A DNA stretch of 47,190 bases from Nanoarchaeum sp. GTDB lineage: Archaea > Nanobdellota > Nanobdellia > SCGC-AAA011-G17 > PNOQ01. This document shows positions 1 through 44,564 of this stretch, one piece after another (within the stretch, counting starts at the first letter, position 1; every line of letters begins with the position of its first letter). The notes under the pieces were generated by a model. The model worked only from the letters and a program-made list of their open reading frames with translations. It had not been told where the DNA came from and made no database searches. The stretch lies in the NCBI GenBank assembly GCA_013824915.1, contig PNOQ01000009.1, positions 1-47,190 on the forward strand. Direction: 5' to 3'. Made by a program: the position numbers and the translations under genes.

Positions 1-1060
1 GGTTCAATATCTTGTTATAATAATAGTGACTCTTCGTGGAAATCTTTCGCAACTTGGGGATCAAATGATGGACCAGTAAGAGTTAATTCGTCTAATATAT
101 ACGGAGATTGTTTGAACGGAAATACATTACAATTACAAGTTGCTTTCCAATGCTTTAATCTTGGTGGATATAATAGGTTTAGTGAAGAAAAAGTTTGGTG
201 GAATAGTCCAACTTCCGCTTTAACATATTTGCCTGGATTAGAAGTAAATGTAAATAATTTAAGTAATACATTAACAACTAAGAATGATAATTGGACGTTT
301 GAATGTAAGGCAAATGATAATATTTTGAATTCTACAGCTATGAATACTAGTGTTCTAATTGGAAACGCTATACCTTACATGCAAGTGGCTAGAATTAGTC
401 CAACGCCAACTACATACACTAATCAAGATTTATTGGGTTATTGTAATGCTAGTGATTATGATGGTACAGATCAATTAACTTATTATTACAGTTGGTACAG
501 AAATGGAAGTTTGAATAATAGTGGTAAAACAAGTACTTACTATTACAGTGAAGATGATAGTGAAGATGCGTTTGCTTCTAGTGGTGTTGTTTCTGATGCT
601 TCTAATGCAGTTGATGAACTTTGGAATACTTATGCATACACAAACAGTGATATGGAAGAGTATGGATTAATATTAATTAATTATACAATCCCTGCAAGTA
701 TAGATGGAGCAAAATTAGAATATAGTATTCGTTCTTCTGCATGTGAAGCTGGTGATGGAGGTTCAATATCTTGTTATAATAATAGTGACTCTTCGTGGAA
801 ATCTTTCGCAACTTGGGGATCAAATGACGGACCAGTAAGAGTTAACTCTTCTAATATTTATGGAGATTGTTTGAACGGAAATACATTACAATTACAAGTT
901 GCTTTCCAATGCTTTAATCTTGGAGGATACAATAGGTTTAGTGAAGAAAAGGTTTGGTGGACTTTTGAAAATAAAACTTGGTATCCTCTTGGATTAGAAG
1001 TAAATGTAAATAATTTAAGTAATACATTAACAACTAAAAATGATAACTGGACATTAAGAT
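1..1060 (+). repeat. In-frame coding repeat, about 756-759 nt offset (1-201 vs 760-960, continuing at about 235 vs 991)
   Basis: 67-aa segment GSISCYNNSD...FSEEKVWW is identical in both copies; 8 third-position differences found by eye. GLEVNVNNLSNTLTTKNDNWT follows in both. Confidence 0.9.
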
Positions 1061-1839: not shown

Positions 1840-3035
1840 AATTAAATAAAAAAATTGGAATAATGTACTTTTTAATAATTATAGTTTTGTTAATTTCTAG
1901 TGATGTTCTTGCATTAGGTATCTCTCCTGCGCAAACAATTGTGGATTTTAAAGTTAGTTTAAATGAGACTGCTGAATTCAAAGTTATTAATAGTGAGCAC
2001 AAATCTATGAAAGTTCTTGTTTATATGGATGGTACTCAAGATGAAGAAATAGATTTAACAATAAATACTCCTGAATTAATATTTACATCTGATGATGAAG
2101 AAAAAACTGCAAGTTATAGTTATAGTTTACCACAAAAGTTTAAAGAACCCGGATTACATGAAATATCTATAATTGCTAGAGAAGTACCTATTGATTCTGA
2201 AACTGCGGGTACACTTATTGGAGCTAGTGTTGCGGTTGAACATGTTTTTAAAATAAATGTTCCTTATCCAGGTAAATATGCTACGACTGAATTAAAAGTT
2301 TCTGAAACAAATAATAATGCAGTTAATTTTATCGTAGTCATAAATAATCTTGGATCTGAGCAAATTACAAATGCAAAAGGATTGATAGATATATTTGATT
2401 CAAAAGGAGTAAAATTAACAAGTTTAGAAACATCTATTGTAAGTGTTGATTCTGGTTTAAGAAAAGAAGTTATGGTTGCTTGGAGCGGTGTTATAGAACC
2501 TGGAGAATACAGAGCGAATTTGAATTTAGTTTATGACAATATGATTAGTGAATATGTTAAAAATTTCCAAATTGGTGAGGCTAAAGTAAATATACTTCAC
2601 ATATATTCCAATAATTTCAAACTTGGGCAAATTGCAAAGTTTAATATTCTAATTGAAAATAAATGGTCTGAAAAAATAAAAGATGTTTATACTGATTTGT
2701 TAATATCTGATGAAGGAAAAGAGATAGGTAGATTTAAGAGTGCTACAGAAGACATAGATCCTTCTTCTAATAAAGAATTAACTGCTTATTGGGATAGTGA
2801 AGGTGTTGAAGTTGGTGAATATGATGCTAAGTTTATGTTACATTATAATGATAAAGTTATTGAAAAAGATATGAAAACAAAAATAGACAAAAATTCAATT
2901 TCATTTAGTGGATTTAGTGGTGCGGTCGTTAGCGATAGTCCTATCAATACGAATAATATTATTGCATTTGTAGTAATAATTGTAGTAGTAAGTGCAATTT
3001 GGATTGTATACTTCAAATTTAAGAAGAAGAAATAA
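1836..3035 (+). CDS. Secreted, C-terminally membrane-anchored beta-sandwich protein
   Basis: N-terminal signal peptide (MYFLIIIVLLISSDVLA), C-terminal TM helix followed by KFKKKK; overlaps upstream stop (ATGA). Confidence 0.75.
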   Translation: MKLNKKIGIMYFLIIIVLLISSDVLALGISPAQTIVDFKVSLNETAEFKVINSEHKSMKVLVYMDGTQDEEIDLTINTPELIFTSDDEEKTASYSYSLPQKFKEPGLHEISIIAREVPIDSETAGTLIGASVAVEHVFKINVPYPGKYATTELKVSETNNNAVNFIVVINNLGSEQITNAKGLIDIFDSKGVKLTSLETSIVSVDSGLRKEVMVAWSGVIEPGEYRANLNLVYDNMISEYVKNFQIGEAKVNILHIYSNNFKLGQIAKFNILIENKWSEKIKDVYTDLLISDEGKEIGRFKSATEDIDPSSNKELTAYWDSEGVEVGEYDAKFMLHYNDKVIEKDMKTKIDKNSISFSGFSGAVVSDSPINTNNIIAFVVIIVVVSAIWIVYFKFKKKK

Positions 3036-3649: not shown

Positions 3650-5380
3650 TTGAAAAAGATGGTGAAAAAATACGTAATATTGATATTCTTGCTGATTTTT
3701 GTTAATTCTCTTATTGTTTATGCCGCTGACAATCAAACTACTAGTAAGGCTGTAAACAAAGAAAAAGCTTTTTCTTGGTTGTATAATGAGTCTAAAAGCG
3801 AAAATTGGGGTGGAGATGCTAATATTGTTTCTTGGGTTATTTTGGCATTAAAAAACAGTAAGAATTATGGTGATTATGATTATAACAAAGCTGTAGACAA
3901 GTTAGAAGACATGGAAGATGATTCTAACTGGGATGATGATGTTTATGAAACTTCTATGGCTATACTTGCTTTAAAGAAAACTGGTAATAATGTAGAAAAT
4001 GAAGTTGAATGGTTAAATGATCAACAAGAAGAAGTTTTAGAGTCCGGAAATTGGCTTGTTCAATTTTTGACTGAAAGCGAAGATGCAAAATGTAACATTA
4101 ATTATGATGGCGATAGTTATGAATTTAGTATTAATAAAACTGAAATTGTAGATAGTTCTGAAAGTTGTGGGGCTGTTGGTGGTAGCTGGGTTGATTTCGA
4201 AGAATGTGTAAAAGATGGTGATAATGTAGATATGTATGAAACCTTTGATGTAAACTGTTTATCTAATTCTAGAGTTCAAACATCAGTTTTATTCAAAAAT
4301 GATAATACTTATTATATAACAGATCAAAATGAACCATTAGAAATAGAAAACTCATGTTTTTATGGGGATGGTAATGATTGTAGTTGTATAAATACACAAT
4401 ATGCTTCTTGGGTTTTATCTGTGGTTAATGACCCAGATTATAGATCATACACTTTACCTTATTTAAGATCTAATTGTAATGAAGATGTTTTAGATACTAT
4501 ATTTTTGTATATGTTAACTTCTTCCAATGAATATTATAGTTATTTAACTTCTGATGATGGTCAACTTGAAGATGGAAGTTTTAGTGGAGATGAATATCAG
4601 ACTGCGTTAGCATTAATTGCAATGAAAGGAAAAACTTCTCCCGAAATTACTAAAGCCATATCTTGGTTAGCATTTAGACAAAAACAAGATGGAAGTTGGA
4701 GTGGCAATATAAAAACAACAGCAGCTGTTCTGTATGCTCTAACTGCAGATGTTACAGTTGGTCCTGGACCTAATAATACTACTGGATGTGGAGATGGTGT
4801 TGTTAATAATGGTACAGAACAATGTGAATATACTTCTCAGTGTAATAATTCAAGTATGACTTGTACTGCATGTCAATGTGTTGCTGTTCCTAGTTGTACT
4901 CGTGATGAAGAATGTAATTCTGGTTATAGTTGCCAAGGTGGAAAATGTTTACTTGTTGCTGAATGTAAATTAAGTTCTGATTGTGACCTTGGTGAAATTT
5001 GTGTTGATGGAAATTGTAAAGTTAAACAAACTGGATGTACTAGTAGCTCGGGTTGTGGTCTTGATGAAGTTTGTGAAGATGGTGTTTGTGTTGCAGAAGA
5101 GGGAAATGGTTGGGTAACTTGGTTGATTGTAATATTAATAGTACTTGTTGGATTAGCTGGTGCTTATTTTGGATATAAAAAATTCTTTAGAAAAAAAGGT
5201 GGAATTAAACCTAGTGGATTTAAACCAAATAATCAGTTTGCACCAAGAGCAACAACATATGCACAAACAAAGCAAAGTGTTCCAATTTCTAGTCCACCAG
5301 TTAGTAATAATGTAGATAGAATGGAGGAACAGCTAGATCAGTCCCTAAAGAAGGCTAGAGATTTATTGAGGGGAAAGTGA
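3650..5380 (+). CDS. Secreted alpha/alpha-toroid (prenyltransferase/squalene-cyclase repeat-like) protein with Cys-rich repeats and C-terminal TM anchor
   Basis: WLYNESKSENWGGDANIVSWVILAL and AISWLAFRQKQDGSWSGNIKTTAAVLYAL (QW-type repeats); repeated CxxxxxCxxGxxCxxGxC units; TM WVTWLIVILIVLVGLAGAYFGY. The start could be ATG 3659. Confidence 0.75.
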   Translation: MKKMVKKYVILIFLLIFVNSLIVYAADNQTTSKAVNKEKAFSWLYNESKSENWGGDANIVSWVILALKNSKNYGDYDYNKAVDKLEDMEDDSNWDDDVYETSMAILALKKTGNNVENEVEWLNDQQEEVLESGNWLVQFLTESEDAKCNINYDGDSYEFSINKTEIVDSSESCGAVGGSWVDFEECVKDGDNVDMYETFDVNCLSNSRVQTSVLFKNDNTYYITDQNEPLEIENSCFYGDGNDCSCINTQYASWVLSVVNDPDYRSYTLPYLRSNCNEDVLDTIFLYMLTSSNEYYSYLTSDDGQLEDGSFSGDEYQTALALIAMKGKTSPEITKAISWLAFRQKQDGSWSGNIKTTAAVLYALTADVTVGPGPNNTTGCGDGVVNNGTEQCEYTSQCNNSSMTCTACQCVAVPSCTRDEECNSGYSCQGGKCLLVAECKLSSDCDLGEICVDGNCKVKQTGCTSSSGCGLDEVCEDGVCVAEEGNGWVTWLIVILIVLVGLAGAYFGYKKFFRKKGGIKPSGFKPNNQFAPRATTYAQTKQSVPISSPPVSNNVDRMEEQLDQSLKKARDLLRGK

Positions 5381-6576
5381 AAAAGTTTATTTTAATTTTA
5401 GTTCTTTTTTTAGTATTAAATTTTGTTTCGGGTTTTTCTTTAAATGTTAATTTTGAAAAAGAGAGTTATAATCCAGGTGATACATTACAAGCAGACATAT
5501 TATTTGATGATGATATTCAAGGTGAGATTTTAACTGAAGATATAGAACTAAATTGTAATGGAAAAATAAATGTTGCTCCCTTCTTATTAAGATTAGAAGA
5601 TAATCATTATTATTCTTATTTTAATATTCCTAGCTCTTTAAGTGATCAGAATTGTAGTTTTATTTTAAAAGATGTAATATATACTAATAACGGTTTTTTA
5701 GAACAAAAAGATTTTATTACAAATTTTAGTTTAAATAATACTAATGATAGTGTTTATGTTAGTCCTGCTGCAGTCAGAATAACAAACGTTGAAACTACAA
5801 ATACTTTTATTGTGCAAGTAATAAATAATGGGTTAAATACTACTAATTATTCTATCTCAACAATACAAACGTTTTTTGATATTTCTAAAAAAAGCTTGTT
5901 ATTAAATCCGGGCCAACTTGGTGAATTTTATGTATATACCAGTGACGTTTTGTATAACAATGTTGGTAAAGCTGAAATAAAATTAGATTATAATTCTAAT
6001 TCATTTTCTATTCCTATATTCTTTTTAGTTGATGATGAAATTTTAATTGATAATACTAGTGAATCTAAATTAGAATTTGTTAATGATTTTGATAATTTTA
6101 ATATAACAATAAATAAAAATAATAATAGTTATGGGTTTTTAAAATTTAAAAATTATGGTGATGATGTTAGTGATATAAATTTTGAGCTAACTGGTAATCT
6201 TGATGAAGTAGTTTATTTACAATTTTATAATTTAGAAGAAATAAAAAAAGATGAAACTTTAAAACAATATGTGTATATTAATCAGAATAAAAGCGCAAGT
6301 TCTGGTAATTATAGTGGTAACTTAAAAATAGATTATGATTCAAAATCGATTGAATTCCCTATATATGTTGAAATAACTGATGTTAATATTAATGTGAATA
6401 ATACGGTAATTAATAATAGTGTTAAGAATACTAGTGTTAAACCTGATGATAAAAAATCTTCGATTAGTGTATGGTGGTTTGTAGGATTATTCTTTGTTGT
6501 GATTATAGTAGTATTCTTTTTATTATATAAGAAAAAATCGAAGAAACCTAAATCTTTTTTGAAGCTCTTTCTCTAG
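5377..6576 (+). CDS. Secreted membrane-anchored protein, GTG start
   Basis: Signal peptide, C-terminal TM with KKKSKK; 4-nt overlap with upstream stop. Confidence 0.7.
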   Translation: MKKFILILVLFLVLNFVSGFSLNVNFEKESYNPGDTLQADILFDDDIQGEILTEDIELNCNGKINVAPFLLRLEDNHYYSYFNIPSSLSDQNCSFILKDVIYTNNGFLEQKDFITNFSLNNTNDSVYVSPAAVRITNVETTNTFIVQVINNGLNTTNYSISTIQTFFDISKKSLLLNPGQLGEFYVYTSDVLYNNVGKAEIKLDYNSNSFSIPIFFLVDDEILIDNTSESKLEFVNDFDNFNITINKNNNSYGFLKFKNYGDDVSDINFELTGNLDEVVYLQFYNLEEIKKDETLKQYVYINQNKSASSGNYSGNLKIDYDSKSIEFPIYVEITDVNINVNNTVINNSVKNTSVKPDDKKSSISVWWFVGLFFVVIIVVFFLLYKKKSKKPKSFLKLFL

Positions 6577-8446: not shown

Positions 8447-8851
8447 TTATAGTTTTAGTTGTTTGTATTGTTTTATTAATTCTTCAAATTTTATTCCTTT
8501 TAATTGTGAAGACTTTAGTGTTACGGTGTAATTTCCGTTTTTGTTTTTTGGTAATTCTTTAGCGTTTAGAAAATACCAACCAAGATTATCAAAACGCATT
8601 GCTATTATTGGAGTAGCGTTTAATATGTCAGAGAAAGTAACTAGTTGATCTATTTCTTCTTTTTGGAAGTTTTTTGAATTACTTCTTATTGATTTACATT
8701 CTATTGCTAGAAGATTTTCTTTGTTGCCCGCTATTAAGTCTGGTGATGGCATTGGAGTTGAACCTGAACCCGCTGCTCGCATACATGCCCAGCTATTATC
8801 CCAAAACATATGTAAAAGTTCACGCTCTGCTCTGCTTCCTTTAGCTTTCAT
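8447..8851 (-). CDS. hjc: Holliday junction resolvase Hjc
   Basis: KGSRAERELLHMFW, SPDLIAG and LLAIECKS match the Hjc nuclease core (E...PD...ExK). Confidence 0.9.
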   Translation of the reverse strand: MKAKGSRAERELLHMFWDNSWACMRAAGSGSTPMPSPDLIAGNKENLLAIECKSIRSNSKNFQKEEIDQLVTFSDILNATPIIAMRFDNLGWYFLNAKELPKNKNGNYTVTLKSSQLKGIKFEELIKQYKQLKL

Positions 8852-8920
8852 GTAATTATAAATATTTTTAGATTAATAAAACTATCTTGTTTAATAAAAT
8901 AAAAAAGAAAAAATTAATAA

Positions 8921-9082
8921 TTATAAGTCTCTACTTTGAACTGTTCTTCTTCCATTTGCTTTGCATCTTTCACAAGCGTCATGGATTAAGTGTTCTACTT
9001 TCTTTTCTAATGCTTCGGCAAAGTCTCCAGAAACGTTCAAATCATTTACAATTTCTTTAATTTTTGATTTAACTACTAACAT
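8921..9082 (-). CDS. Small histone-fold-like (DUF1931-type) protein, 53 aa, not in the ORF track
   Basis: Translated by hand: MLVVKSKIKEIVNDLNVSGDFAEALEKKVEHLIHDACERCKANGRRTVQSRDL*. Preceded by SD GGGAGGTG; ANGRRTV.xRDL is typical of these small histone-fold proteins. Confidence 0.8.
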   Translation of the reverse strand: MLVVKSKIKEIVNDLNVSGDFAEALEKKVEHLIHDACERCKANGRRTVQSRDL

Positions 9083-9166
9083 TCTTCGCACCTCCCATTG
9101 TTTTGAAGAAAAATATGCATTTATAAGGTTTTTGCCGTTAGTTTAGGATTATTGAGTGATAAATTG

Positions 9167-10627
9167 TTATAATGGTTTCATGGTTGGGAAGGCTATAACT
9201 TCTCTAACTGTTGTAGAATTAGTTAATAACATGACTAGTCTGTCTACGCCTATGCCTAAGCCACCTGCGGGAGGCATACCGTGTTCTAAAGCAAGTATGA
9301 AGTCTTTGTCCATAGGATTTGCTTCTTGGTCTCCTTTTAATCTCTCTTTCTCTTGTTTTTCTAAAAGTTCTTTTTGGATTATGGGATTATTTAGTTCTGA
9401 ATAAGCATTTCCGAATTCGTGACCATTTATGAAAAATTCAAATCTTTCTATTAATTCAGGGTTACCACGTTTTTCTTTACACAATGGACTAGTTTCTTTT
9501 GGATAGTCTGTTATGAAAGTTGGTTGAATTAATTGTGATTCTACTAGTTCTTCAAATAAATAATTAATTGCCCATCCACGATTATATTCTGGTAATTCTA
9601 TTTTATGTTCTTTTATTAATTTTTTAATTTCATTGTCTGATAATTTTTCAACATCTATCTTTGCATATTTTTTTAATGATTCATACATGGTTAGCTTTTG
9701 CCATGGTTTTTTCAAACTTATTTTTTTGTTGTCATATTCTATTTCTGTAGTACCATTTATTTTTTTTGATAAATGTACAAACAAATCTTCTACATAATTC
9801 ATAATATCATTATAATCTTTGTATGCCCAGTATAGTTCAAACATAGTAAATTCCGGATTATGAGTACGGTCTACACCTTCGTTTCTGAAATTCTTTGTGA
9901 TTGTATAAACTTTTTCGAAACCGCCAACTAATAATCTTTTTAGATATAATTCTGGGGAGATACTTAAGAATAAGTCCATGTTCCATGCGTTAATGTGTGT
10001 TTTGAAAGGTTTAGCTTTTGCTCCACCATAAACTGTTTGTAATACAGGAGTTTCTACTTCTATGAAACCTAACTTATTTGTATAATCTCTTATTTCTTGT
10101 ACTATTTTGTGACGTTTTATGAATATTTCTTTTTGTTCTGGGTTTGCTATGAAATCTAAATATCTTTGTCTGTATCTTATTTCAGGATCTTTTAGGCCTT
10201 TGTATTTATCTGGCAAAGGTAGAAGACTTTTTGTTAAAAGTTCGAATTTTTCTGCATGGATTGTTATTTCTCCAACTTTAGTTTTGAAAACTTTTCCTTG
10301 TATACCTATAATATCTCCATGGTCTAACTTTTTGAATAGTTCGTAATTCTTTAATGATTCTGAACTTCCGAAAATTTGTATTTTATCTGTTTCATCTAAA
10401 ATTGTTATGAACGAAGCTTTACCCATTACTCTTGTTGTAATAACTCTGCCAGCGATACTAGCATTTGTTTTTGTGTTTTCTCCATCTTTCAGTTTCTTAA
10501 ATTTACTTAGAATTTCTGAAGCATTATCTTTCTTATCAAAAGTATACGGAAATGGATTTACTCCTTGTTGAATAATCCAATTTAGTTTTTCTTTCCTTTT
10601 TTGATAAATATCTAATTCTTCTGTCAT
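9167..10627 (-). CDS. lysS: Lysyl-tRNA synthetase, class II
   Basis: N-terminal OB-fold, YRQRYLDFIANPE, FRNEGVDRTHNPEFTMFELYWAY, GGLGIGVDRLVMLL. Confidence 0.95.
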   Translation of the reverse strand: MTEELDIYQKRKEKLNWIIQQGVNPFPYTFDKKDNASEILSKFKKLKDGENTKTNASIAGRVITTRVMGKASFITILDETDKIQIFGSSESLKNYELFKKLDHGDIIGIQGKVFKTKVGEITIHAEKFELLTKSLLPLPDKYKGLKDPEIRYRQRYLDFIANPEQKEIFIKRHKIVQEIRDYTNKLGFIEVETPVLQTVYGGAKAKPFKTHINAWNMDLFLSISPELYLKRLLVGGFEKVYTITKNFRNEGVDRTHNPEFTMFELYWAYKDYNDIMNYVEDLFVHLSKKINGTTEIEYDNKKISLKKPWQKLTMYESLKKYAKIDVEKLSDNEIKKLIKEHKIELPEYNRGWAINYLFEELVESQLIQPTFITDYPKETSPLCKEKRGNPELIERFEFFINGHEFGNAYSELNNPIIQKELLEKQEKERLKGDQEANPMDKDFILALEHGMPPAGGLGIGVDRLVMLLTNSTTVREVIAFPTMKPL

Positions 10628-24275: not shown

Positions 24276-25109
24276 ATGAAAAAGAGAGGGCAGGCTACAG
24301 TTTTTATAATTCTGGGTATAGTGGTTTTAACTCTATTTGGATTGCTGTTAGCTTTGAGAGGAGATTTACTTTCTGGAATTTTTAATACTGGGCAGAGTGA
24401 TCAAAGCAGGGCTGCAAATATTGAACCTGTTAAAGAAGTTATTGCTAATTGTGTTGAAATAACTTTACTTGATGGTGTTGAATGGGTTTCTAATCGTGGT
24501 GGTTATTTTGAACCTGTTGATTCTGAACAATATAGTTATGATAGTGGAGATATCTTAGTTGCTTATGCTTGGGGTTCTGAGATTGGAACTAGATTGCCTA
24601 CTTTGGATGGATTAGGCATACAAATTAACCTTTACATGGCTGAACATCGTGCTGAAATTGAAGATTGTATTGATAAAAATTTAGAACAATATCAAAGAAT
24701 TTGGTCAATTAGAAATGAAAAAGATTTTTCTTTAGGTATCCCACAAATAACTGATAATACTATAACTCAAAGAATACTTTTTAATAATCCTTTGTCTGTA
24801 AGTAAAGGAGATTATGTTGGAACTTCTAATGAAATATTAGCTGAATTAGATCTTGCATTAGGACAAGCACATAAAATGGCTGTTGAAATAAGTTCTTGTT
24901 TCAATGGTGATTCTTTACCTGCTGATTTTAATACATATTGTAATAATGGTGGTGTTCCATTTAGAGCCGAACTTTACAATATGAAATATCCGAACAATGT
25001 AGTGAGAATGTTACACCAAGCGTGTGCACAATGTAGTGATTGTTATCATTTATACATACCTGCTGAAGGAGGAGATATAATATTTAATACTGACTTAGCA
25101 ACATGTTAA
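24276..25109 (+). CDS. Pilin-like/secreted protein with N-terminal TM, 277 aa
   Basis: MKKRGQATVFIILGIVVLTLFGLLLALRG; start of a same-strand cluster. Confidence 0.7.
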   Translation: MKKRGQATVFIILGIVVLTLFGLLLALRGDLLSGIFNTGQSDQSRAANIEPVKEVIANCVEITLLDGVEWVSNRGGYFEPVDSEQYSYDSGDILVAYAWGSEIGTRLPTLDGLGIQINLYMAEHRAEIEDCIDKNLEQYQRIWSIRNEKDFSLGIPQITDNTITQRILFNNPLSVSKGDYVGTSNEILAELDLALGQAHKMAVEISSCFNGDSLPADFNTYCNNGGVPFRAELYNMKYPNNVVRMLHQACAQCSDCYHLYIPAEGGDIIFNTDLATC

Positions 25110-28100
25110 ACAAAAATAAATTTGCATTGTTATTTGGACTTGTGTTAGTCCTAGTTATGTTTTCTAATGTTAGTGCTTTACCTACATGTTGTATAACTGG
25201 ACCAAACAATCAATTTTGTATAGATAATTTAATAACAGGTTGTTCTGAAAGTGTTTCTGGTTCTTGTAGTGATGCACAAATAGACAGATGTAATAAAGGA
25301 ACTTGTGTTCCAAATAATGGAGTTTGTTTATCTGATTATAGTAAAGAACAATGTAATTTTGAAGGCGGAGAATGGTTTGATCAACCAAAAGAAGAGGTTG
25401 CTAAATGTCAGATGGGTTGCTGTAAAGAAACTAGTGTTTGTGGTGTAGTTCAAAAAAATCAATGTAGTGGTGAATTTGATACTGGAGTAACGAATTCTGC
25501 AACTTGTGATTCTCAGTGTGCAGTTAATGAATTAGGTTGTTGTGTTTCGGCTACTGATTGTGTATTTGGAGAAAGGGGAGATTGTACTGAAACATTTGAA
25601 GCTACGAAACAATGTAATCAAATTCAATCCTGTAATGGAAAATATGAAAGTCATAAATATACTGCTTGTGGAGATAATGAATTAATTGGTAATTCTGAAC
25701 TAGATGTTTATTGGTATGATTCTAATGGAAATATGGAAGAGAAAGTTGGAACTCGTGATTCTAGTGGAAGAGTAAGACAAGTTAATGGTGAAGATATGAA
25801 TGGTACATGTAATTATCCTGATGAGAAATGTTATGATCCTGATGAAAAAGGTGGAAGAGAAAATGCTTATTGTAAATCTACTGCATGTATAGTTGAAGGA
25901 GATTGTCCTGAATGTGTTCCTGAAACTTTTTTACATGGAGAATCTATTTGTTTAAAAATTTTTAAGGGTCAATTTACTAATGACCAAAGAAGTAAATATT
26001 TGAGAGAATATGTTTTATCTTGTGATAGCGGTGAAGTTGTTGAGGATAGAGAATTAAATAGAGCTGAAGAAATCTGTGTTGATAATACTATCACTGTAGA
26101 TGGTGTACAAAGAAGAAAAGCAAATGTAATCCCAAACGAATGGAGTAGTTGTTTAGGATGTGGATCTGGCGGTGGAGTTTTTGATTATGGTGGATATGTC
26201 CCTGTATTCGGTGCGGTTCCTATGTCTGTTTTTGGTAGTTGGTGTGGTAGTGGTGCTATAACCAATAGTGTTCCTGGTGGATTTGGAGCTCAAACTTGTG
26301 ATGATATAACTGGTCAAGATGGAGCTGCTATGTGTTATTATGATAATGATTTCTGGGCACCACTTGGATCTTGTAATCCAATTTATACTCCTTCGATTTC
26401 TACGGATGAACAATGTGGCAAATGTGGAAGAGGAGGAGATAGTTCAACAAATGTTTGTACAGAACAAGAATGTAATGCTTTAGGCGATTGTCAATTTTAT
26501 CCTGATGGTGGATTGGATGTTGGTGGCTTAGCTCAGACTGGTGCTTTAGCTTTAGGTGGGGCAACTGCAGCTATGGCAGCTTCTCAATTTGCATGCAATA
26601 TTCCTTTTGTTCCAACTGAAGCATGTTTCCAACTTGCGTTAGGAACTGTAGGAAATGTATTTGGTAGCTCTTTATTCTGGGGAGTTTATAGTTTGACACT
26701 TGGATTAACTGTAGGAAATAGCCAAGGTTATGATGAAAGTTATAATGATTTTTCTTTTAACAAAGGATCGTACTATGATTTAGCACAGTACATTATTGCT
26801 GCTAAAGCGGTTTCTACATCCTTGGATGGAGATCTGAATGGCAATTATTGGGTAAGTTCTGGAGCAGGGGTGTTACAGGGAATGAACTTACTTTCTTTGT
26901 TTACTAATCTTGAAACTGATTTATTATTCTCTCTTGAGAATAATGTAGTTGGGATAGGTATGCAATCTTCTGAAGAATTCGGAAGACAAGTCATTTATCA
27001 AGAGTCTTTTAATGAAGCACTAAATGGTGTGGATATACTTGGTGAGACTGAAGCGACTTATTTACAAGCACATAATACTGCAACTGAAGCTGCAGCTAGT
27101 GCATCAACAGATGAAGCAATTCAAGCTGGATCTAAACTTGCTAGAGCGTTAAAGGTAGCAGGTATTGCTTATAGTGTTTATAGTGCAAGTGAGTCATGGA
27201 GAACCGGAGATTGTAAACCTGAAACTGCTTATACTGATAGTGATCGTTGTGAACAATGTGGTCCTGGAGAAGGACAGTTCTTCTGCACTAAACAGAGATG
27301 TGAAATATTAGGTGAAGATACAAATCATTGTTTATGGATACCAAAAGAAGATGGAACTGATGATGGAATATGCACAACTGATGACCCTGGTAATGTTGCT
27401 TTGCCTAATTTAAATAGAATATATTTAGAATTATACGATATAAATGATAGTTTTGTTGTTGATCAAGAAATAAATGATAATGTTTTAGAAATGGAAAGTG
27501 CTGTTGATTGGAATAAAGCACATACTGTAAAATTAAATATAACTACTGATATAAGAGCGATATGTAAAGCAGATTTTGCTGTTGAATCAGAATTTAGTGC
27601 TATGGAATATACTTTTGATGGTGTATTTACTACAGATCATACATTGTCTTTCAATTTAACTGAAGAAATAAAATCAAGTGGAGAAGCTACTTTATTTGTT
27701 AAATGTAATAATACTAATGGTGTTGCTCATAATGCTAATGAAGATATGAATCAAATAATATTAAAATTTGGTACAAGACCAGATGTTATTCCTCCTGTGT
27801 TCAAGAGTGTCGATCCATATAATGCATTTAATTTACCTGAAGGAACAGATAACGTTACTGTAACGTTGAAAGTTTATGATAATAACGGAGTTAGAGGATG
27901 TAAATATTCTGAAGAAAAAGTAAATTATGGTGAAATGGAATACACATTTACAAAAGGAGCAAGAGCGCAATGCCCAGGTTCAAGTGTGAGAGATTGTGAT
28001 ACTTTCACAGCTAGATTTGATTTAGGAGATGCAGGTCAAGAAATTGATTTAACAAGTATGGATTATGATGAAAATGGTACATTGTATAGTTATGTTTTTG

Positions 28101-28705
28101 GCTGTGTTGATGAATTAAACAATCTTATAGTACAAAATTATTCATTTACTGTTTATCCTTCATTTGGATTAAACTTAACTGCTCCTGAAAGTGGTGAAGA
28201 AATTTACACTACAAGACCAACCATAAAATTAGAAACTGATGTAATTAGTCAATGTTTGTATAAGTTTGATAATGAAATAAATTGGACTAAGATGAATGAA
28301 ATAGTTGATACTAAAATTTATGATTATAAAATAAAGAGAGATATAACTTCTTCTCCTGAAGGAACACAACATACACTATATGTAAAATGTATGGATATAG
28401 GTCATAATATAGCGGAAGAATCAGTTAACTTCTATGCTGTATCTGATGTTCAACCTTCTTATCCTGTAAGAATTTATACATCTGGAACTTACGGTAGCGG
28501 TAAACTACATGTTTTACTAAATGAACGAGCTTCATGTAAGTTTGAAACTGACAGCGCAGATTATGAATACGAAGATGAAGGAACACCAATGTCTGCTGTG
28601 CCTCCAGAAAATGAAGAGCAGCAAACTACTTGGAATAGTAATGTTTTCTATATTAAATGTAAAGACGAGTTTGGTAATATTGGAGGATTTACAGTTTACC
28701 CATAA
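25103..28705 (+). CDS. 1200-aa Cys-rich secreted protein
   Basis: Signal peptide (LLFGLVLVLVMFSNVSA), many Cys pairs, internal hydrophobic Ala/Gly-rich region, C-terminal Ig-like repeats. Confidence 0.8.
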   Translation: MLNKNKFALLFGLVLVLVMFSNVSALPTCCITGPNNQFCIDNLITGCSESVSGSCSDAQIDRCNKGTCVPNNGVCLSDYSKEQCNFEGGEWFDQPKEEVAKCQMGCCKETSVCGVVQKNQCSGEFDTGVTNSATCDSQCAVNELGCCVSATDCVFGERGDCTETFEATKQCNQIQSCNGKYESHKYTACGDNELIGNSELDVYWYDSNGNMEEKVGTRDSSGRVRQVNGEDMNGTCNYPDEKCYDPDEKGGRENAYCKSTACIVEGDCPECVPETFLHGESICLKIFKGQFTNDQRSKYLREYVLSCDSGEVVEDRELNRAEEICVDNTITVDGVQRRKANVIPNEWSSCLGCGSGGGVFDYGGYVPVFGAVPMSVFGSWCGSGAITNSVPGGFGAQTCDDITGQDGAAMCYYDNDFWAPLGSCNPIYTPSISTDEQCGKCGRGGDSSTNVCTEQECNALGDCQFYPDGGLDVGGLAQTGALALGGATAAMAASQFACNIPFVPTEACFQLALGTVGNVFGSSLFWGVYSLTLGLTVGNSQGYDESYNDFSFNKGSYYDLAQYIIAAKAVSTSLDGDLNGNYWVSSGAGVLQGMNLLSLFTNLETDLLFSLENNVVGIGMQSSEEFGRQVIYQESFNEALNGVDILGETEATYLQAHNTATEAAASASTDEAIQAGSKLARALKVAGIAYSVYSASESWRTGDCKPETAYTDSDRCEQCGPGEGQFFCTKQRCEILGEDTNHCLWIPKEDGTDDGICTTDDPGNVALPNLNRIYLELYDINDSFVVDQEINDNVLEMESAVDWNKAHTVKLNITTDIRAICKADFAVESEFSAMEYTFDGVFTTDHTLSFNLTEEIKSSGEATLFVKCNNTNGVAHNANEDMNQIILKFGTRPDVIPPVFKSVDPYNAFNLPEGTDNVTVTLKVYDNNGVRGCKYSEEKVNYGEMEYTFTKGARAQCPGSSVRDCDTFTARFDLGDAGQEIDLTSMDYDENGTLYSYVFGCVDELNNLIVQNYSFTVYPSFGLNLTAPESGEEIYTTRPTIKLETDVISQCLYKFDNEINWTKMNEIVDTKIYDYKIKRDITSSPEGTQHTLYVKCMDIGHNIAEESVNFYAVSDVQPSYPVRIYTSGTYGSGKLHVLLNERASCKFETDSADYEYEDEGTPMSAVPPENEEQQTTWNSNVFYIKCKDEFGNIGGFTVYP

Positions 28706-35225: not shown

Positions 35226-35507
35226 TTATAATCCAAATGATTCTTCGAAGCTTTTCATTTCAATTATTTTTTGTGCTAGGCTACAACCCTTTTCAGTTAT
35301 TACAAAATATGTAGAATTTTTTTCTTCAACTTTTGTTATCATACCTTTTTCTATTAATTCTTCTAAATATGAATTCATCTGATTATACGAAAGATTAGCT
35401 TTATACATCAAATGAGTAGGCTTTATTTTACCGCCTTTTTTTTGAATTGAAATAATCATGTCATGAATTATATCAATTCTAGTTCTTTTTCTTTCCATAA
35501 TTAACAA
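35226..35507 (-). CDS. Winged-helix transcriptional regulator (HTH_45-like)
   Basis: RIDIIHDMIISIQKKGGKIKPTHLMYKANLSYNQMNSYLEELIEKGMI...YFVITEKG. Confidence 0.82.
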   Translation of the reverse strand: MLIMERKRTRIDIIHDMIISIQKKGGKIKPTHLMYKANLSYNQMNSYLEELIEKGMITKVEEKNSTYFVITEKGCSLAQKIIEMKSFEESFGL

Positions 35508-36198
35508 CTCTTCTTAATATTAAGAATAATAATAAATAACCTAATAATTGTACTATCTCGGCTAGTATGAAAAATACATTGTCGAGAGAAACAAACATAA
35601 ATAATATTTGACTTATAGCGATGCTACTGAATGCAAAACCTAAAACTTTTGTATGTGGATTACCATTTTCTGCGTATCTATCGAAATATAATATTGATAT
35701 TATAGTTAATAGCAAAAATGAAGTAATATGAAAAACATAATAGTTTAAATTACTAAAGTAAGTTGAAATTATTACAAAATAGGTTATTAAAAACATCATA
35801 GATTTTGCTTGTTTTTCTTGGTAAATACTATATAAGAAGTATAACCCCATTAGGTTTAGGAATACAAATAAAGTAAATGTTAAATCTGTAAACATATTAT
35901 AAGATCTTATTGTTTCTAATGTACTTGTAATTATTGTAGGCTTGCTCGTTCTTACAAACTCATGATAATATAAAGCTAGATTAGTTATTAATTTAAAAAA
36001 GAATGATGCACAAATCAATAAAAACGCGAATGAAATGTATTTATACTTCTTATTTCTGCCGCTTAAATTATAATATTTTAAACTCATCAAACTAATTGAA
36101 AATAGTACTAAGAAACTGAAAAAGTCTATAAATATAGATGGAAAATTAAACCACCCCGGACTATACTTTAAAGGTATCATTAAGTTTGGAGATATCAA
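35479..36198 (-). CDS. Multi-TM membrane protein, overlapping the downstream HTH gene
   Basis: About seven hydrophobic segments; 29-nt overlap with the HTH gene. Confidence 0.7.
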   Translation of the reverse strand: MISPNLMIPLKYSPGWFNFPSIFIDFFSFLVLFSISLMSLKYYNLSGRNKKYKYISFAFLLICASFFFKLITNLALYYHEFVRTSKPTIITSTLETIRSYNMFTDLTFTLFVFLNLMGLYFLYSIYQEKQAKSMMFLITYFVIISTYFSNLNYYVFHITSFLLLTIISILYFDRYAENGNPHTKVLGFAFSSIAISQILFMFVSLDNVFFILAEIVQLLGYLLLFLILRRVVNYGKKKN

Positions 36199-36226: not shown

Positions 36227-37702
36227 TTATTTAACAATAATAGCACTATCTATTGCGCCTTTTGCTAATTCTAATTTTTCTCTGTTTTCAGAGTATATAG
36301 TGAATAGTTTTTCTCCTCTTTTTACTTGTTCACTTACTTTTTTGTAGATATACAGACCTGCGCCTTTGTTAGATGGTGCACCAGCTAACCTAGCTATTTT
36401 AGCTATTCTTAGGTTATCTATATGTTCTATACTACCAGTTTTTTTACTTTTGTAGTCATATTTAAGTTTACCAATAACTATTTGTTCGGGTAAAATATTT
36501 GGATTGCCTTGTTGAGCTTTTATTATTTCTTTCATTTTTTTATATGCTTGGCCAGACTCTAATATTTCTCTTGCTGATGCTTTTGTGTTTGTTAATCTGA
36601 ATAATCTATCTGCCATCATAATCGCTTTTTCTTCTAAATCTTTTGGAGCTCCAGGTTCTCTTCTTAAAATGTATAAAACATCTCTTGCTTCTAAAGCTGG
36701 GCCTATACCGTTGCCTATTGGTTGCGAGCCATTTGTAAATATCACTCTTGTTTTTATTCCTAAAGCTCTTGCTATTTTTTCGAATTTTTTCTTAAGTTTT
36801 TTTCCATCTTTTTTGTTTGTTATTTTTGCGCCATGACCCACAGGAATATCTATTAATAAATGGGTTGAACCAACTGCAGCTTTCTTTGCAAGAATTGAAG
36901 CTATCATCAAACCAGAAGGATCTAATCTTAATGGATGTCTTACTTTTATTAATTTACTATCTGCGCTTGCAAGTTCCATTGCGCCTGCCCAGACCATACA
37001 ACCATTTGTTTTTTTGAGTATATTTTTTATTTCATCTACTGTGAAATCTACTTTAGCTAATACTTCCATCGTATCAGATGTTCCCGAAGGACTAGTTATA
37101 GATCTAGAACTAGTTTTTATCATTGTTAAACCAGCAGATGCAATTATAGGAGTAACAATCATAGTTGTTCTATTATTTGGGATTCCGCCAACACAATGTT
37201 TATCTGCAACTATTTTATTTTTTAACTTTATAGTTTTGCCTTCATTTGCAATTGCTTTTGTTAAGTATACTGTTTCTTTGTAAGTTAATCCTTTTTTGTA
37301 GCAACCTGCAACAAAATATGCTATTTCTATATCAGATAAACCATTAGATACTAAATCTTTAACTATGAACTCTATCTCTTTTTTTGATAATTCTTTTCCA
37401 TCTAATTTTTTTCTTATTGCTTCTACAGAAAATGGATTTTCAGAAGGATAAATACTAACTATTTTATGTTTTTTCGAATCTATGATTTTAGCTGTTTCTT
37501 CGAATAAACCTAAATAACCTGGTCTTACTTTAGTATTATCTTTTGTTATATCTAAAATTACATTTACAGTATTTACAGAATTATATTTTATTTTAATTCT
37601 ATCTAATGCATTTAAATCTAGTTTAGTAGCATCCTTTTCATTTATAACTGCAACTAGCGGACCACCAGTTGAAAATTTTACCTCTTTTGTTTTAAGCTGC
37701 AT
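36227..37702 (-). CDS. deoA: AMP phosphorylase (archaeal thymidine-phosphorylase family)
   Basis: N-terminal MQLKTKEVKFSTGGPLVAVIN, KHCVGGIPNNRTTMIVTPIIASAGLTMIKTSSRSITSPSGTSDTMEVL. Start likely ATG 37702 rather than 37732. Confidence 0.92.
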   Translation of the reverse strand: MQLKTKEVKFSTGGPLVAVINEKDATKLDLNALDRIKIKYNSVNTVNVILDITKDNTKVRPGYLGLFEETAKIIDSKKHKIVSIYPSENPFSVEAIRKKLDGKELSKKEIEFIVKDLVSNGLSDIEIAYFVAGCYKKGLTYKETVYLTKAIANEGKTIKLKNKIVADKHCVGGIPNNRTTMIVTPIIASAGLTMIKTSSRSITSPSGTSDTMEVLAKVDFTVDEIKNILKKTNGCMVWAGAMELASADSKLIKVRHPLRLDPSGLMIASILAKKAAVGSTHLLIDIPVGHGAKITNKKDGKKLKKKFEKIARALGIKTRVIFTNGSQPIGNGIGPALEARDVLYILRREPGAPKDLEEKAIMMADRLFRLTNTKASAREILESGQAYKKMKEIIKAQQGNPNILPEQIVIGKLKYDYKSKKTGSIEHIDNLRIAKIARLAGAPSNKGAGLYIYKKVSEQVKRGEKLFTIYSENREKLELAKGAIDSAIIVK

Positions 37703-38702
37703 TTTCTTCTTGATACAATCTATAAACTGCAAATAATATCGATAAGACTAAAGGACCAACAACTATTCCTGCTATTCCGAATAAACTTAAACCCCCTAAT
37801 GTACCAATCAAAACTACAATAGGATTAATATTGGAGTTTTTTTTCATTATTTGGAATTTTACTATATTATCTAAGTATGATGTGATTATTACTAGGAAAT
37901 ATATCAACAAGAAAATTCCTTCTGTTGTTTTTCCTATTAAACCTAAATATATCGCTGCTGGAACGTATATTAATGGTGGGGATAATATAGGTAAATATAC
38001 TGATAATGCTATTAAGAAAGACCATAAAACTGGGTTTGGAATTCCGAATAAATAAAATCCTATAAATGCTATAACTCCTTCTAATACAGCTATTATGAAT
38101 AGTACACTAATTATTGTTTTAATAACTCGTTTAATTTCTAAAAATAATTTATCTTCTACATCTTGTTTTAATGGAACTACTTTTTTTAAATTTCTAGATA
38201 TTTCTTTTCCATCTTTTAAGAAGAAAAACAACGAAAAGAAGAATATGAATAGTTGTAAAACTCCTTGCATTATTTGTTCTACTAAATCGGCACTATTTAG
38301 AACAAACTTCTCGGCTAGTACTTTGATTACTTCCCTTATATGCCTCTCAAAATTAATATTTAAACCAGTTATTTTTTGTAAATTATCTGAGAATTGTGTT
38401 AACTCTAATGAACTTGCTGAATTGTAAAGAGTTACTGTTTCTTGAAATAATTGATTAGCAAAATAGATTAAAGGAATAACGATAAGAATTAATATCAAAA
38501 ATATTAATATTAAACTAGTAATAATTGGTTGTTTTATCTTTTTATTTAATTTTTCATACAGTGGAAATGCTGCAACTGCTACGACTCCTGCTGCTAACAA
38601 AGGGGCTAGAAATGGTGCAGCTATTTTGTATGATACGTAAACTAGAATTAATACTGATACTATAACGATAAGCATAGAATATTTCTTTAGATTTTCGGCC
38701 AT
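37692..38702 (-). CDS. AI-2E (PerM/UPF0118) family transporter
   Basis: Multi-TM; APFLAPLLAAGVVAVAAFPLYEKLNKK and ...NPIVVLIGTLGGLSLFGIAGIVVGPLVLSILFAVY signatures. Confidence 0.87.
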   Translation of the reverse strand: MAENLKKYSMLIVIVSVLILVYVSYKIAAPFLAPLLAAGVVAVAAFPLYEKLNKKIKQPIITSLILIFLILILIVIPLIYFANQLFQETVTLYNSASSLELTQFSDNLQKITGLNINFERHIREVIKVLAEKFVLNSADLVEQIMQGVLQLFIFFFSLFFFLKDGKEISRNLKKVVPLKQDVEDKLFLEIKRVIKTIISVLFIIAVLEGVIAFIGFYLFGIPNPVLWSFLIALSVYLPILSPPLIYVPAAIYLGLIGKTTEGIFLLIYFLVIITSYLDNIVKFQIMKKNSNINPIVVLIGTLGGLSLFGIAGIVVGPLVLSILFAVYRLYQEENAA

Positions 38703-38745
38703 AATTTAAATACTGGTTGATATGTTTATAAATATTATTATTTGT

Positions 38746-40035
38746 TTAAACTGGTTTAGAAGTTCCCCATTTAGAAAGTGCTAGTTTTAGTTCTGGGTTA
38801 GTTTGTGAATATTTTTCTAAAGAGATACTTTTTAGCTTTGCATCTATTGCTTGTCTTAGTGCAATTGCACCATATTTTGAACCTTGTGGATGGCCGTGAA
38901 TTCCTCCTCCAAGTTGAATAACAATGTCTTTTCCTAAAGTATCAATTATATAAGGCACCAAACCCGGATGTAAACCTCCCGAGGATACTGGGATAAGATC
39001 TTTTGTATTATACCAATTTTGTTCAAGAACATTTGATTTTGGCAAAGCTTTTATTTTTTGATCAACTATTTCTTTTCGGATATTTATTACTTCATCTTTT
39101 GTTCCGACTAACTTACCTATAACTGTGCCAATATGAATATTGTCTACGCCTATTAACCTTGATAGCTTTGCTAATGTTAACATCGACATACCGTGCCTTG
39201 GATTTCTGTCGAATGCTGCATGAAAAGCACGATGAGCATGAATTGCTTGTTTTAAATCTTGAGTTTCTTCTCTTAATGTTTGTAATCCAGACCAACCTAC
39301 AGTTAGGATATCACACATAACATATTTGAAATCATATTCTTTGCATATCTTTGCACGTTTTAACATCTCTTTTGTTTCTGCGCTAACATTAATGAAATAA
39401 TCTTTTTTTTCTCCAGTAATTTTTTCTGCTTGGTCTCTTGCCTTTGCAGCTGCTTTTACCCTATCCCCAAACTTATTGAAATTTTGGGAAGTTAAATTTT
39501 CATCATCTTTAGCAAAATCAACGCCACCAACCCAAGAATCAAATATTACTTTTGTGTGTTCTTTTGTTGTTAAGCCGACTTTTGGTTTGGGTACTGTGGC
39601 AATCATGGGCCTTTCTTTTACTCTCATATATTTTCTTATGCCTTCAATACCATATTGTGGCCCTCTAAACGATTTTATATATTCTTTTGAGAATTGAATA
39701 TCTTCTAATCTTAAATTGTTTAATGCTTTCATGCCAAAAATATTACCTGCTACAGAACTCATTAATTGTGGAACACTTCCAAGTTCAAATAATTCTATAG
39801 GATATGCGACTTTAACATAATTGCCATCAAATTCAAATGCTCTAGCTCTTATTTTTCTTATGTGTGATTTTAATGTACTTAATGTAGTCCAAGTACCATT
39901 TGAAGATTCAGCTGCTACTCTTCCAATAGCTTCTTTTTTAGAAATTCCTTTTGCTGGTTCTAATCTAAATAAAACTATAATGTCTGAACTATTTGGTTTG
40001 TATTTCAAATCCACAAAATCTAAATATTGACTCAT
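38746..40035 (-). CDS. rbcL: Ribulose-bisphosphate carboxylase, archaeal form III large subunit
   Basis: KPKVGLT, GGVDFAKDDEN, HAHRAFHAAFDR, NIHIGTVIGKLVG, SSGGLHPG, QLGGGIHGHPQG: active-site motifs retained. Confidence 0.95.
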   Translation of the reverse strand: MSQYLDFVDLKYKPNSSDIIVLFRLEPAKGISKKEAIGRVAAESSNGTWTTLSTLKSHIRKIRARAFEFDGNYVKVAYPIELFELGSVPQLMSSVAGNIFGMKALNNLRLEDIQFSKEYIKSFRGPQYGIEGIRKYMRVKERPMIATVPKPKVGLTTKEHTKVIFDSWVGGVDFAKDDENLTSQNFNKFGDRVKAAAKARDQAEKITGEKKDYFINVSAETKEMLKRAKICKEYDFKYVMCDILTVGWSGLQTLREETQDLKQAIHAHRAFHAAFDRNPRHGMSMLTLAKLSRLIGVDNIHIGTVIGKLVGTKDEVINIRKEIVDQKIKALPKSNVLEQNWYNTKDLIPVSSGGLHPGLVPYIIDTLGKDIVIQLGGGIHGHPQGSKYGAIALRQAIDAKLKSISLEKYSQTNPELKLALSKWGTSKPV

Positions 40036-40661
40036 AATAACCTCTTTATTTGACTGATTTCTTTAATTATGAAATCTGCCTTTTTTAAATCTTTCTTAGA
40101 AATCTTTGGTCCGGTTAAAACTATTATTGATTTTGTTTTTGCAGCTTTTGCTGTTTTTATGTCTTGAAGAGTGTCCCCCACTAAAAAGTTTACCTTTGAT
40201 TTTAATTTATGTTCAATTTTATGCACTCCAGTTGGGAACGGTTTTGGTTTGCTTACATCATTGTAACCCAAAATTATCTTAAAATATTTTTTATCTATTT
40301 TTGTTTGTTTTAAAATTTTATTTATCTTTTTATGTTGATTATTACTTAGCAAAGTTAATGTATGTTTTTTTGAAAGTTCTTTTAATAGTTTATTTGTATT
40401 TTTGAATGGTTTTATTTGATAAAATGTTTTTGAACGGATTTCTTCAAAATCTTTAATTATTTTTTTAATTTGACTATCTGTTAGTTTAGAATTAGTTTTT
40501 TTTACTATTTCTCTTGCCATTAAACCCCAATGTTTTTTTAATTCTTTGTTTGATATTTTTACTTTATTTTTTTTAAAAGATTCTTGAAAAGAATTTAATA
40601 TCCATGACTCTGTGTTAACTAAAGTTCCATCTAGATCAAAACATATTATCATTTTATCCAA
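40032..40661 (-). CDS. HAD superfamily (subfamily IA) phosphatase
   Basis: ICFDLDGTLVNTE, LLSNNQHKK, GYNDVSKPKPFP, FLVGDTLQDIKTAKAAK. Confidence 0.87.
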   Translation of the reverse strand: MDKMIICFDLDGTLVNTESWILNSFQESFKKNKVKISNKELKKHWGLMAREIVKKTNSKLTDSQIKKIIKDFEEIRSKTFYQIKPFKNTNKLLKELSKKHTLTLLSNNQHKKINKILKQTKIDKKYFKIILGYNDVSKPKPFPTGVHKIEHKLKSKVNFLVGDTLQDIKTAKAAKTKSIIVLTGPKISKKDLKKADFIIKEISQIKRLL

Positions 40662-41449
40662 GGATATTCTTTTTTAACTGTCTTAATAAATCTCTTTGGA
40701 GATAAAATTCCTAATTCTGAACAAATCGCCTTTATATTTTCCTTAGGTATTTTTTCGAATGCGGGATTTTTAATTTCTATACGTCTATTACTAATATTCC
40801 AGACTTCTTTTGGATCTCTTTGTTCTACTTCTAATTGTTTTGGATAATATTTCCAAGAATTTGAGATTATGTATAATTTCTTTTTATGTTTTTTTGCTAA
40901 TTCTGATATCCCATAGCTTCCTATCTTGTTGTATACATCTCCATTATGGTTGATTAAATCTGAACCTAAAAATATTATGTCTGATTTTTTTATTGCTTGA
41001 TCGGCTGCAGAATCTACAAAGTGAGTAACTTTTATTTTATACTTTGCAAGTTCTTTTGCTGTTCTTCTACCTTGATATAACGGTCGAGTCTCTGTATTAT
41101 GTACTTGAAAATTTGTGTGCTTCTTTGCTAGTTTTAGTGATTTTGTTACAGAATTTGAATGGCAATGGGTGAATACAATGTAATCTCTTTTTATTAATTT
41201 GGAAGAATTTATTTCTGTTTTTTGATTTATGTTAACAAAATAATTGTGTGCGATTTGTGGTGAAGTTTTTTGTGCAAATTTTATTATATTTCTTAAGCAT
41301 GGTTCTGTTGGTCTTGCATTGATTAATTGTTTTACTGAATCTGAATCATTTTTTATAGAATATGCTTTTAATCCCGCAAAAGCTATATCTCGTGCGCCTT
41401 GAATTTTTAAATTCTTTATATCCCTTACAATCTTATCAAAATCACCCAT
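40649..41449 (-). CDS. Ribose-1,5-bisphosphate isomerase (eIF2B-like family), compact
   Basis: LKIQGARDIA, INARPTEPCLRN, VFTHCHSNSV, TETRPLYQGRRTAKELA, FLGSDLI, RDPKEVW.., NPAFEKIP. Confidence 0.87.
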   Translation of the reverse strand: MGDFDKIVRDIKNLKIQGARDIAFAGLKAYSIKNDSDSVKQLINARPTEPCLRNIIKFAQKTSPQIAHNYFVNINQKTEINSSKLIKRDYIVFTHCHSNSVTKSLKLAKKHTNFQVHNTETRPLYQGRRTAKELAKYKIKVTHFVDSAADQAIKKSDIIFLGSDLINHNGDVYNKIGSYGISELAKKHKKKLYIISNSWKYYPKQLEVEQRDPKEVWNISNRRIEIKNPAFEKIPKENIKAICSELGILSPKRFIKTVKKEYPWIK

Positions 41450-41527
41450 TTAGTTAAAATTTTGATTTTGTATTATTTAAAGTTTACCAATTTTTTGTAA
41501 TATTTAATCAAAAATATCCTTCGTGAT

Positions 41528-43739: not shown

Positions 43740-44564
43740 ATGACATTAGAATCAATTGTTAATCCATTTACCGCTGTTGAGAAGCCAGGTCATATGTTTT
43801 ATGTTGGTTTATTATATGCTAGTGTTGCTGTTTTTTTGAGTTTATGGATTTTTAAGGATTCTTCTAGTCTTATAATGGTATTTTTGACTGTTCTTGCTTC
43901 TGTGTCTATAGTATTTTCTACAATGACTCTTGAAGAGCAAGTTGATGTAAAATTTAAGGATGAGATTTCTATTCTAAAACGACATGCGAGTGTTATAAAA
44001 TATTTGATGTATTTGTTTTTAGGATTTGTTGTTGCTTACACTGCCTGGTATTTAATATTACCAGATAGTTTAGTAAACATATTGTTCAAAACACAAATGG
44101 ATACAATAATGGCTATAAATTCTAATATAACTGGTGGCGCATACGATTCTGGTTCTGTATTTTTACAAATATTCATGAATAATTTTAAAGTTATGTTATT
44201 CTGTCTGTTCTTTTCATTTTTCTATGGTGCAGGTGCAATATTTATATTGACTTGGAATGCTTCTGTTATAGCGGCTGCTGCTGGGGCATTTATTGAATCT
44301 ACTGTTGCTTCAGGAATACATATAGTTGGTGCCGTGCCTTTAACTTTACTTAGATATGGTATACATGGGGTGCCGGAGATAATAGCTTACTTTGTTGCAG
44401 CTTTAGCAGGCGGTATATTATCTGTAGCAATGATGAACAGGGACTTAGAAAGCAGTAAATTTAAGAAAATCATATTGGATATAGTTGACTTATGTTTGAT
44501 TTCATTTGTGATATTATTAATTGGTGCTTTATTGGAAGTTTATGTAACTCCTATTTTCTTTTAA
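43740..44564 (+). CDS. SpoIIM/DUF95-like membrane protein
   Basis: FLQIFMNNFKVMLFCLFFSFFYGAGAIFILTWNASVIAAAAG, HGVPEIIAYFVAALAGGILS. Confidence 0.82.
   Translation: MTLESIVNPFTAVEKPGHMFYVGLLYASVAVFLSLWIFKDSSSLIMVFLTVLASVSIVFSTMTLEEQVDVKFKDEISILKRHASVIKYLMYLFLGFVVAYTAWYLILPDSLVNILFKTQMDTIMAINSNITGGAYDSGSVFLQIFMNNFKVMLFCLFFSFFYGAGAIFILTWNASVIAAAAGAFIESTVASGIHIVGAVPLTLLRYGIHGVPEIIAYFVAALAGGILSVAMMNRDLESSKFKKIILDIVDLCLISFVILLIGALLEVYVTPIFF

Follow-up and report, generated by a model that had tools for sequence, protein, structure and literature searches.

Organization of the locus

Contig PNOQ01000009.1 of Nanoarchaeum sp. (assembly GCA_013824915.1) raises the question of whether five consecutive minus-strand genes, encoding three enzymes of nucleotide salvage, a HAD phosphatase and an AI-2E-family membrane protein, form one dedicated operon. 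The window, which is the whole stretch of DNA that was analyzed, comprises the entire 47,190-base contig; the genome (G000) has a size of 829 kb, is 90% complete and contains a single gene for ribulose-1,5-bisphosphate carboxylase/oxygenase (RuBisCO). An earlier note on this DNA had described the genes as one compact operon making up a full salvage-plus-transport module, with the phosphatase and the transporter as pathway partners. We found that the locus is probably better explained by two neighboring salvage transcription units, in which the contiguity of the five genes is secondary, the RuBisCO gene (rbcL) has been replaced in relatives, and the roles of the HAD and AI-2E proteins are those that we infer below. 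All five open reading frames (ORFs) were found where the earlier note had placed them and in the same order, and family scans agreed with the names given (IF-2B/ribulose_e2b2, HAD_2, RuBisCO_large and rubisco_III, AI-2E_transport, and thymidine/AMP phosphorylase domains). In the order of transcription, the features are the following:

41474..41481, minus strand: TATA-like box TTTAAATA, beginning 32 nt upstream of the R15Pi ATG
40649..41449, minus strand: ribose-1,5-bisphosphate isomerase (R15Pi), short form, 266 aa (TIGR00511, 133.5 bits; IF-2B Pfam, 147 bits)
40032..40652, minus strand: HAD-superfamily C1-cap phosphatase (HAD), 206 aa, ATG start (HAD_2, 117 bits)
38746..40035, minus strand: form III RuBisCO large subunit (RbcL), 429 aa (TIGR03326 rubisco_III, 593.7 bits)
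38725..38732, minus strand: TATA-like box TTTATAAA, in the RbcL/AI-2E gap, beginning 30 nt upstream of the AI-2E ATG
37692..38702, minus strand: AI-2E/PerM family membrane protein (AI-2E), 336 aa (PF01594, 165.8 bits), one copy in the genome
36227..37702, minus strand: AMP/NMP (nucleoside monophosphate) phosphorylase (AMPpase), DeoA-type, 491 aa (TIGR03327, 523.7 bits; NF003338, 552.4 bits)

Within each of the two groups the genes overlap. The HAD and RbcL genes share 4 nt, and the AMPpase start at ATG 37702 produces an overlap of 11 nt with the AI-2E gene, as the earlier note had it; TTG 37732 is also open, and spacings of -4, -11 and -17 prevail among relatives. The 13-nt overlap previously given for R15Pi and HAD depends on an upstream TTG at 40661 (209 aa), whereas ATG 40652 results in a 4-nt ATGA overlap, and the latter start was preferred because -4 is the commonest R15Pi/HAD spacing in relatives. 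In contrast, RbcL and AI-2E lie 43 nt apart with a TATA-like box between them, and a single operon was not established.

The five proteins were each used to search 103 genomes of the order, and about 115 neighborhoods from the order and 60 from other families of the class were compared; few archaeal relatives outside the order were recovered in a scan of named genomes. Recurrence beside the pathway genes in relatives, on which the earlier note had made its reading depend, was evident for both additional genes. In the order, HAD directly follows R15Pi in 27 loci, usually with a spacing of -4 nt, and directly precedes RbcL in 17 loci, while AI-2E stands immediately ahead of AMPpase in 29 of 32 loci; a thirtieth adjacent case (L144) has a split AMPpase ORF. 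Beyond the order, R15Pi and HAD were also adjacent in three families (L181, L185 and L190). In the other class families, 16 of 20 AMPpase-centered loci contained the AI-2E-AMPpase pair, mostly with no RuBisCO gene in the vicinity; with R15Pi-centered loci added, the count was 18 of 29. The gene pairings, which recur in dozens of genomes, exceed chance. RbcL and R15Pi showed near-perfect co-occurrence in the order genomes (both in 50, one alone in 2 and 2, neither in 49). AI-2E co-occurred with AMPpase (p=0.004) and not with RbcL (p=0.46); AI-2E is thus associated with AMPpase and not with RuBisCO.

TATA-like boxes were counted in the region from -40 to -16 relative to the start codon, and the counts were compared with those of shuffled sequences. 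Boxes were present before 34 of 47 R15Pi genes (shuffled mean 9.9, maximum 18) and 42 of 54 AI-2E genes (shuffled mean 15.2, maximum 22), and the conserved boxes stood 29-31 nt ahead of the start codon. No excess over shuffles was observed before rbcL (13/54) or AMPpase (9/32). The signal before HAD was intermediate (20/64, shuffled mean 8.4, maximum 15), in a set that includes copies without an upstream R15Pi.

In view of these results, it is quite unlikely that the five genes form a single operon dedicated to salvage and transport, in which HAD and AI-2E would be obligate partners of the pathway. The genes lie on the same strand with tight spacing in the window and in three related genomes (G085, G086 and G089), and the pairings recur in relatives. 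Nevertheless, a single operon would have no start of its own ahead of AI-2E, where a conserved TATA-like box, a putative second promoter, was found; RbcL lies directly ahead of AI-2E in merely 5 of 54 loci, AI-2E does not track RbcL, and both HAD and AI-2E are retained in genomes without the pathway. The single operon was therefore dropped as the best reading. The supposed module is split in the sister genomes G083 and G084, where the opposite strand between rbcL and AI-2E encodes RimK, Dph6 and a retropepsin-like protease; in the compact genomes (G000, G085, G086 and G089) RimK was not found and Dph6 was located on another contig. Because this block appears to be lost or moved in the compact genomes, the contiguity of the five genes most plausibly arose as a side effect of that change, with its direction presumed. 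R15Pi-HAD-RbcL and AI-2E-AMPpase would then, on the best reading, be two side-by-side units.

Apparent exchange of RuBisCO within the slot

The phylogenetic trees of the genes flanking rbcL agreed with the ancestry of the window's family (f1). In particular, the seven core f1 members formed one clade in the R15Pi tree (support 90), and the available core members formed one clade each in the HAD, AMPpase and AI-2E trees. In contrast, forcing the seven core members together in the RbcL tree cost 114 log-likelihood units (p-AU 3e-6). The pairwise identities revealed the same conflict: G086 and G084 were 88% identical in RbcL, 63% in R15Pi and 37% in AI-2E, and the window and G088 were 84% identical in RbcL (partial sequence) and 61% in R15Pi, whereas G086 and G088, which belong to the same genus, showed an RbcL identity of just 57%. 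Both rbcL types occupy the R15Pi-HAD-rbcL slot, and the 4-nt overlap of HAD and rbcL is kept in each. Elsewhere in the order, a distant long RuBisCO (499 aa) occupied the same slot in L049, and the slot RuBisCO of L065 was nearest to those of Methanolinea and Thaumarchaeota. Because the rbcL tree conflicts with the trees of its operon neighbors, rbcL has apparently been swapped in the same slot for other form III lineages within f1, while the flanking genes retain the ancestry of the family. The alternative is differential loss of ancient RuBisCO paralogues, by which the same conflict would arise instead of by replacement.

Enzymes of the pathway

The three enzymes leading from AMP to 3-phosphoglycerate, as the earlier note had recognized, are all present as judged by sequence, and flux through this AMP (carboxylating pentose bisphosphate) pathway is predicted. 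According to published work on the pathway, AMPpase would convert NMP and phosphate into base and ribose-1,5-bisphosphate, R15Pi would convert the latter into ribulose-1,5-bisphosphate (RuBP), and RuBisCO would yield two molecules of 3-phosphoglycerate. RbcL scored above the TIGR03326 cut-off of 497, and its aligned active-site stretches were conserved with those of 6hun. AMPpase was slightly under the cut-off of the AMP_phos equivalog TIGR03327 (523.7 vs 535) and over that of NF003338, and it matched the archaeal phosphorylase 4ga5 over the full length. Given a TIGR00511 score far under the NCBIfam equivalog cut-off (133.5 vs 314), R15Pi appears to belong to a divergent subfamily. Its best PDB matches were R15P isomerase of Thermococcus kodakarensis, and Cys96 and Asp164 aligned with Cys133 and Asp202 of that enzyme, which we take to be the catalytic residues. 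Compared with the AMP pathway of T. kodakarensis, all three enzymes are shared, the RuBisCO is of form III and the catalytic positions that were checked are kept, whereas here R15Pi is shortened and the enzymes are clustered with the HAD and AI-2E proteins. The same enzymatic route has already been reported in Woesearchaeota (PMC8421398).

The HAD phosphatase

D6, D8, T10, K137, D160 and D164 were invariant across 58 HAD orthologues, which accounts for the four catalytic motifs of the superfamily. A confident AlphaFold2 model (pLDDT 95.8) displayed the C1 cap fold, with TM scores of about 0.8-0.9 to C1 HADs; the nearest structures were phosphoglycolate-phosphatase-like, and CbbY (4uar/4uau) was found further down. 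The protein passed no equivalog cut-off (TIGR01449, 53.4 vs 180; NF009695, 77 vs 225), and its relatives were likewise under. We propose that HAD would be a C1-cap sugar-phosphate phosphatase acting at the pentose-bisphosphate/RuBisCO node, where it may remove overflow or side products, and that it would have been recruited to the pathway without being exclusive to it.

Two more specific activities were considered. One is that of a 2-phosphoglycolate phosphatase or a CbbY-like xylulose-bisphosphate phosphatase that clears side products of RuBisCO. The best profile and structure relatives include both enzymes, in f1 the HAD and rbcL genes share 4 nt, and a C1-cap HAD fold within a RuBisCO gene cluster is common to this locus and to the CbbY/CbbZ proteins of bacterial Calvin-cycle operons. 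However, the identity to CbbY/CbbZ is about 16-18%, every equivalog cut-off was missed widely, and HAD is as closely associated with R15Pi as with RbcL, survives without either and is retained in genomes without RuBisCO. Additionally, the oxygenase product of RuBisCO is unlikely in anaerobes, which these organisms are presumed to be. We regard this assignment as unlikely.

The other activity is that of an RuBP phosphatase feeding a non-carboxylating branch, in which RuBP is converted into ribulose-1-phosphate and then into dihydroxyacetone phosphate and glycolaldehyde. In haloarchaea, the HAD hydrolase encoded beside the R15P isomerase gene has this activity, and the route operates in species without RuBisCO (PMC9700705). 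The likeness is one of gene position, as HAD directly follows R15Pi here; in contrast to the haloarchaeal hosts, HAD here accompanies a retained RuBisCO, and no class II aldolase (PF00596, the ribulose-1-phosphate aldolase family) was found in G000 or the eight other f1 genomes searched. The branch was thus disfavored, and we consider this activity very unlikely for the HAD protein. A search of plasmid records for the haloarchaeal R15Pi-HAD locus returned none, and the matches were mostly to mtnA.

We also observed that the HADs of six core f1 genomes differ at near-invariant positions (H18 to I/N, Y163 to Q, F/L42 to W and S14 to T) and sit on a long stem branch when compared with those of L103, L120 and others. 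These substitutions suggest that specificity has changed in the HADs whose genes share 4 nt with rbcL. In L041 (G088), HAD is split into two ORFs at 8689-9270, between R15Pi and rbcL and close to the contig end; a frameshift, a pseudogene or an assembly error may account for this.

The AI-2E protein and its pairing with AMPpase

Residues 11-329 of the AI-2E protein matched positions 2-325 of the 327-position PF01594 profile, which corresponds to the full length, and the sequence relatives included the solved structures YdiK (7ot9) and TqsA (7nb6). The AI-2E/PerM/UPF0118 family includes the AI-2 exporter TqsA and a Na+(Li+)/H+ antiporter (PMC9134010, PMC7221264), and the substrate therefore cannot be read from the family name. 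In contrast to the known members, the gene here is linked to that of AMP phosphorylase across an archaeal class, and the two reading frames overlap in the manner typical of translationally coupled genes. The protein would serve as a core carrier in the membrane, with its expression tied to that of AMPpase, and as a guess it may export the base released by AMPpase, consistent with the accumulation of bases in T. kodakarensis cultures (PMC12628685).

A broader proposal is that AI-2E is a dedicated AMPpase carrier throughout the class, for nucleobase export or for nucleotide or nucleoside import, while RuBisCO behaves as an interchangeable cassette within an R15Pi-HAD-rbcL slot that itself stays fixed. 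We put this forward tentatively, as a possibility on the doubtful side. In the literature searched, no report of the AI-2E-AMPpase pairing, or of a link of HAD or AI-2E to the pathway, was found, and an earlier mention is possible.

Weighing the two-unit reading

Several observations weigh against two salvage units with HAD and AI-2E as participants. The TATA-like boxes were recognized by their match to a consensus, in a genome that is rich in AT, and readthrough from the first unit into the second may occur. The functions given to HAD and AI-2E are putative, and we counted this against the reading. No pathway-specific signature was seen in HAD, as orthologues from genomes with and without the pathway share the catalytic and conserved residues. 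HAD was present in 16 intact cases without R15Pi, RbcL and AMPpase, and AI-2E in 29 genomes without AMPpase. Because they persist in genomes without the pathway, neither HAD nor AI-2E is exclusive to it; the earlier view of them as pathway partners holds in part, for their recurrence beside pathway genes. Finally, HAD was found in 47 of 52 genomes with R15Pi and 17 of 51 without (Fisher p=1e-9; one of the 17, the fragmentary case G081, carries RbcL), yet with phylogenetic pairing this association was not significant. Two to three of four informative pairs agreed and about none disagreed, so that the direction was consistent across pairs that were too few to confirm it.

These points bear on a further explanation, in which HAD and AI-2E are housekeeping genes of an order-wide SpoIIM-HAD-Dph6-RimK-protease-AI-2E neighborhood, pathway genes have been inserted into it or lost from it, and the two functions are unrelated to the pathway. 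The SpoIIM-HAD-(Dph6, RimK, protease)-AI-2E block is kept without R15Pi, RbcL and AMPpase in six loci (L120, L125, L126, L131, L134 and L135), AI-2E is single-copy in 84 of the 103 genomes, and pathway-minus copies are dispersed in the HAD and AI-2E trees, with 8 changes each. The conserved residues of HAD are likewise the same with or without the pathway. On the other hand, AI-2E-AMPpase adjacency, with its overlapping genes, outlasts the block in many families of the class, HAD is much commoner in genomes with R15Pi, and R15Pi-HAD adjacency extends beyond the order. We find this explanation rather doubtful, and retain the two neighboring salvage units as the probable one.

Neighboring genes and other features

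A conserved divergent neighbor of the R15Pi-HAD unit was found order-wide, in 42 surveyed loci:

43740..44564, plus strand: SpoIIM-family membrane protein (PF01944)

Its adjacency to R15Pi was also seen in the class families f60, f86 and f95 (L178, L180, L183 and L190). Downstream of AMPpase, 35226-36198 encodes a membrane protein (239 aa) and an Sso10a/winged-helix protein, which occupy the same place only in G086 (L071). Two consecutive gene pairs of near-equal length lie at 112-3035 and 3650-6576 (575/399 aa and 576/399 aa), and no sequence similarity between them and no Pfam match were detected. A 1200-aa ORF at 25103-28705 also had no Pfam match.

Significance

The pathway itself is known, and the parts worth following are the AI-2E-AMPpase coupling and the exchange of RuBisCO within its slot. 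The latter presents the known lateral movement of RuBisCO at the resolution of a gene slot. In most sampled families of the class, AI-2E lies directly upstream of AMPpase, usually with an overlap. This position leads to a specific hypothesis on what the members of a poorly understood transporter family carry, and bears on nucleotide handling by symbiotic archaea. If AI-2E is indeed the carrier for AMPpase, this would be a previously unassigned function for the AI-2E family.

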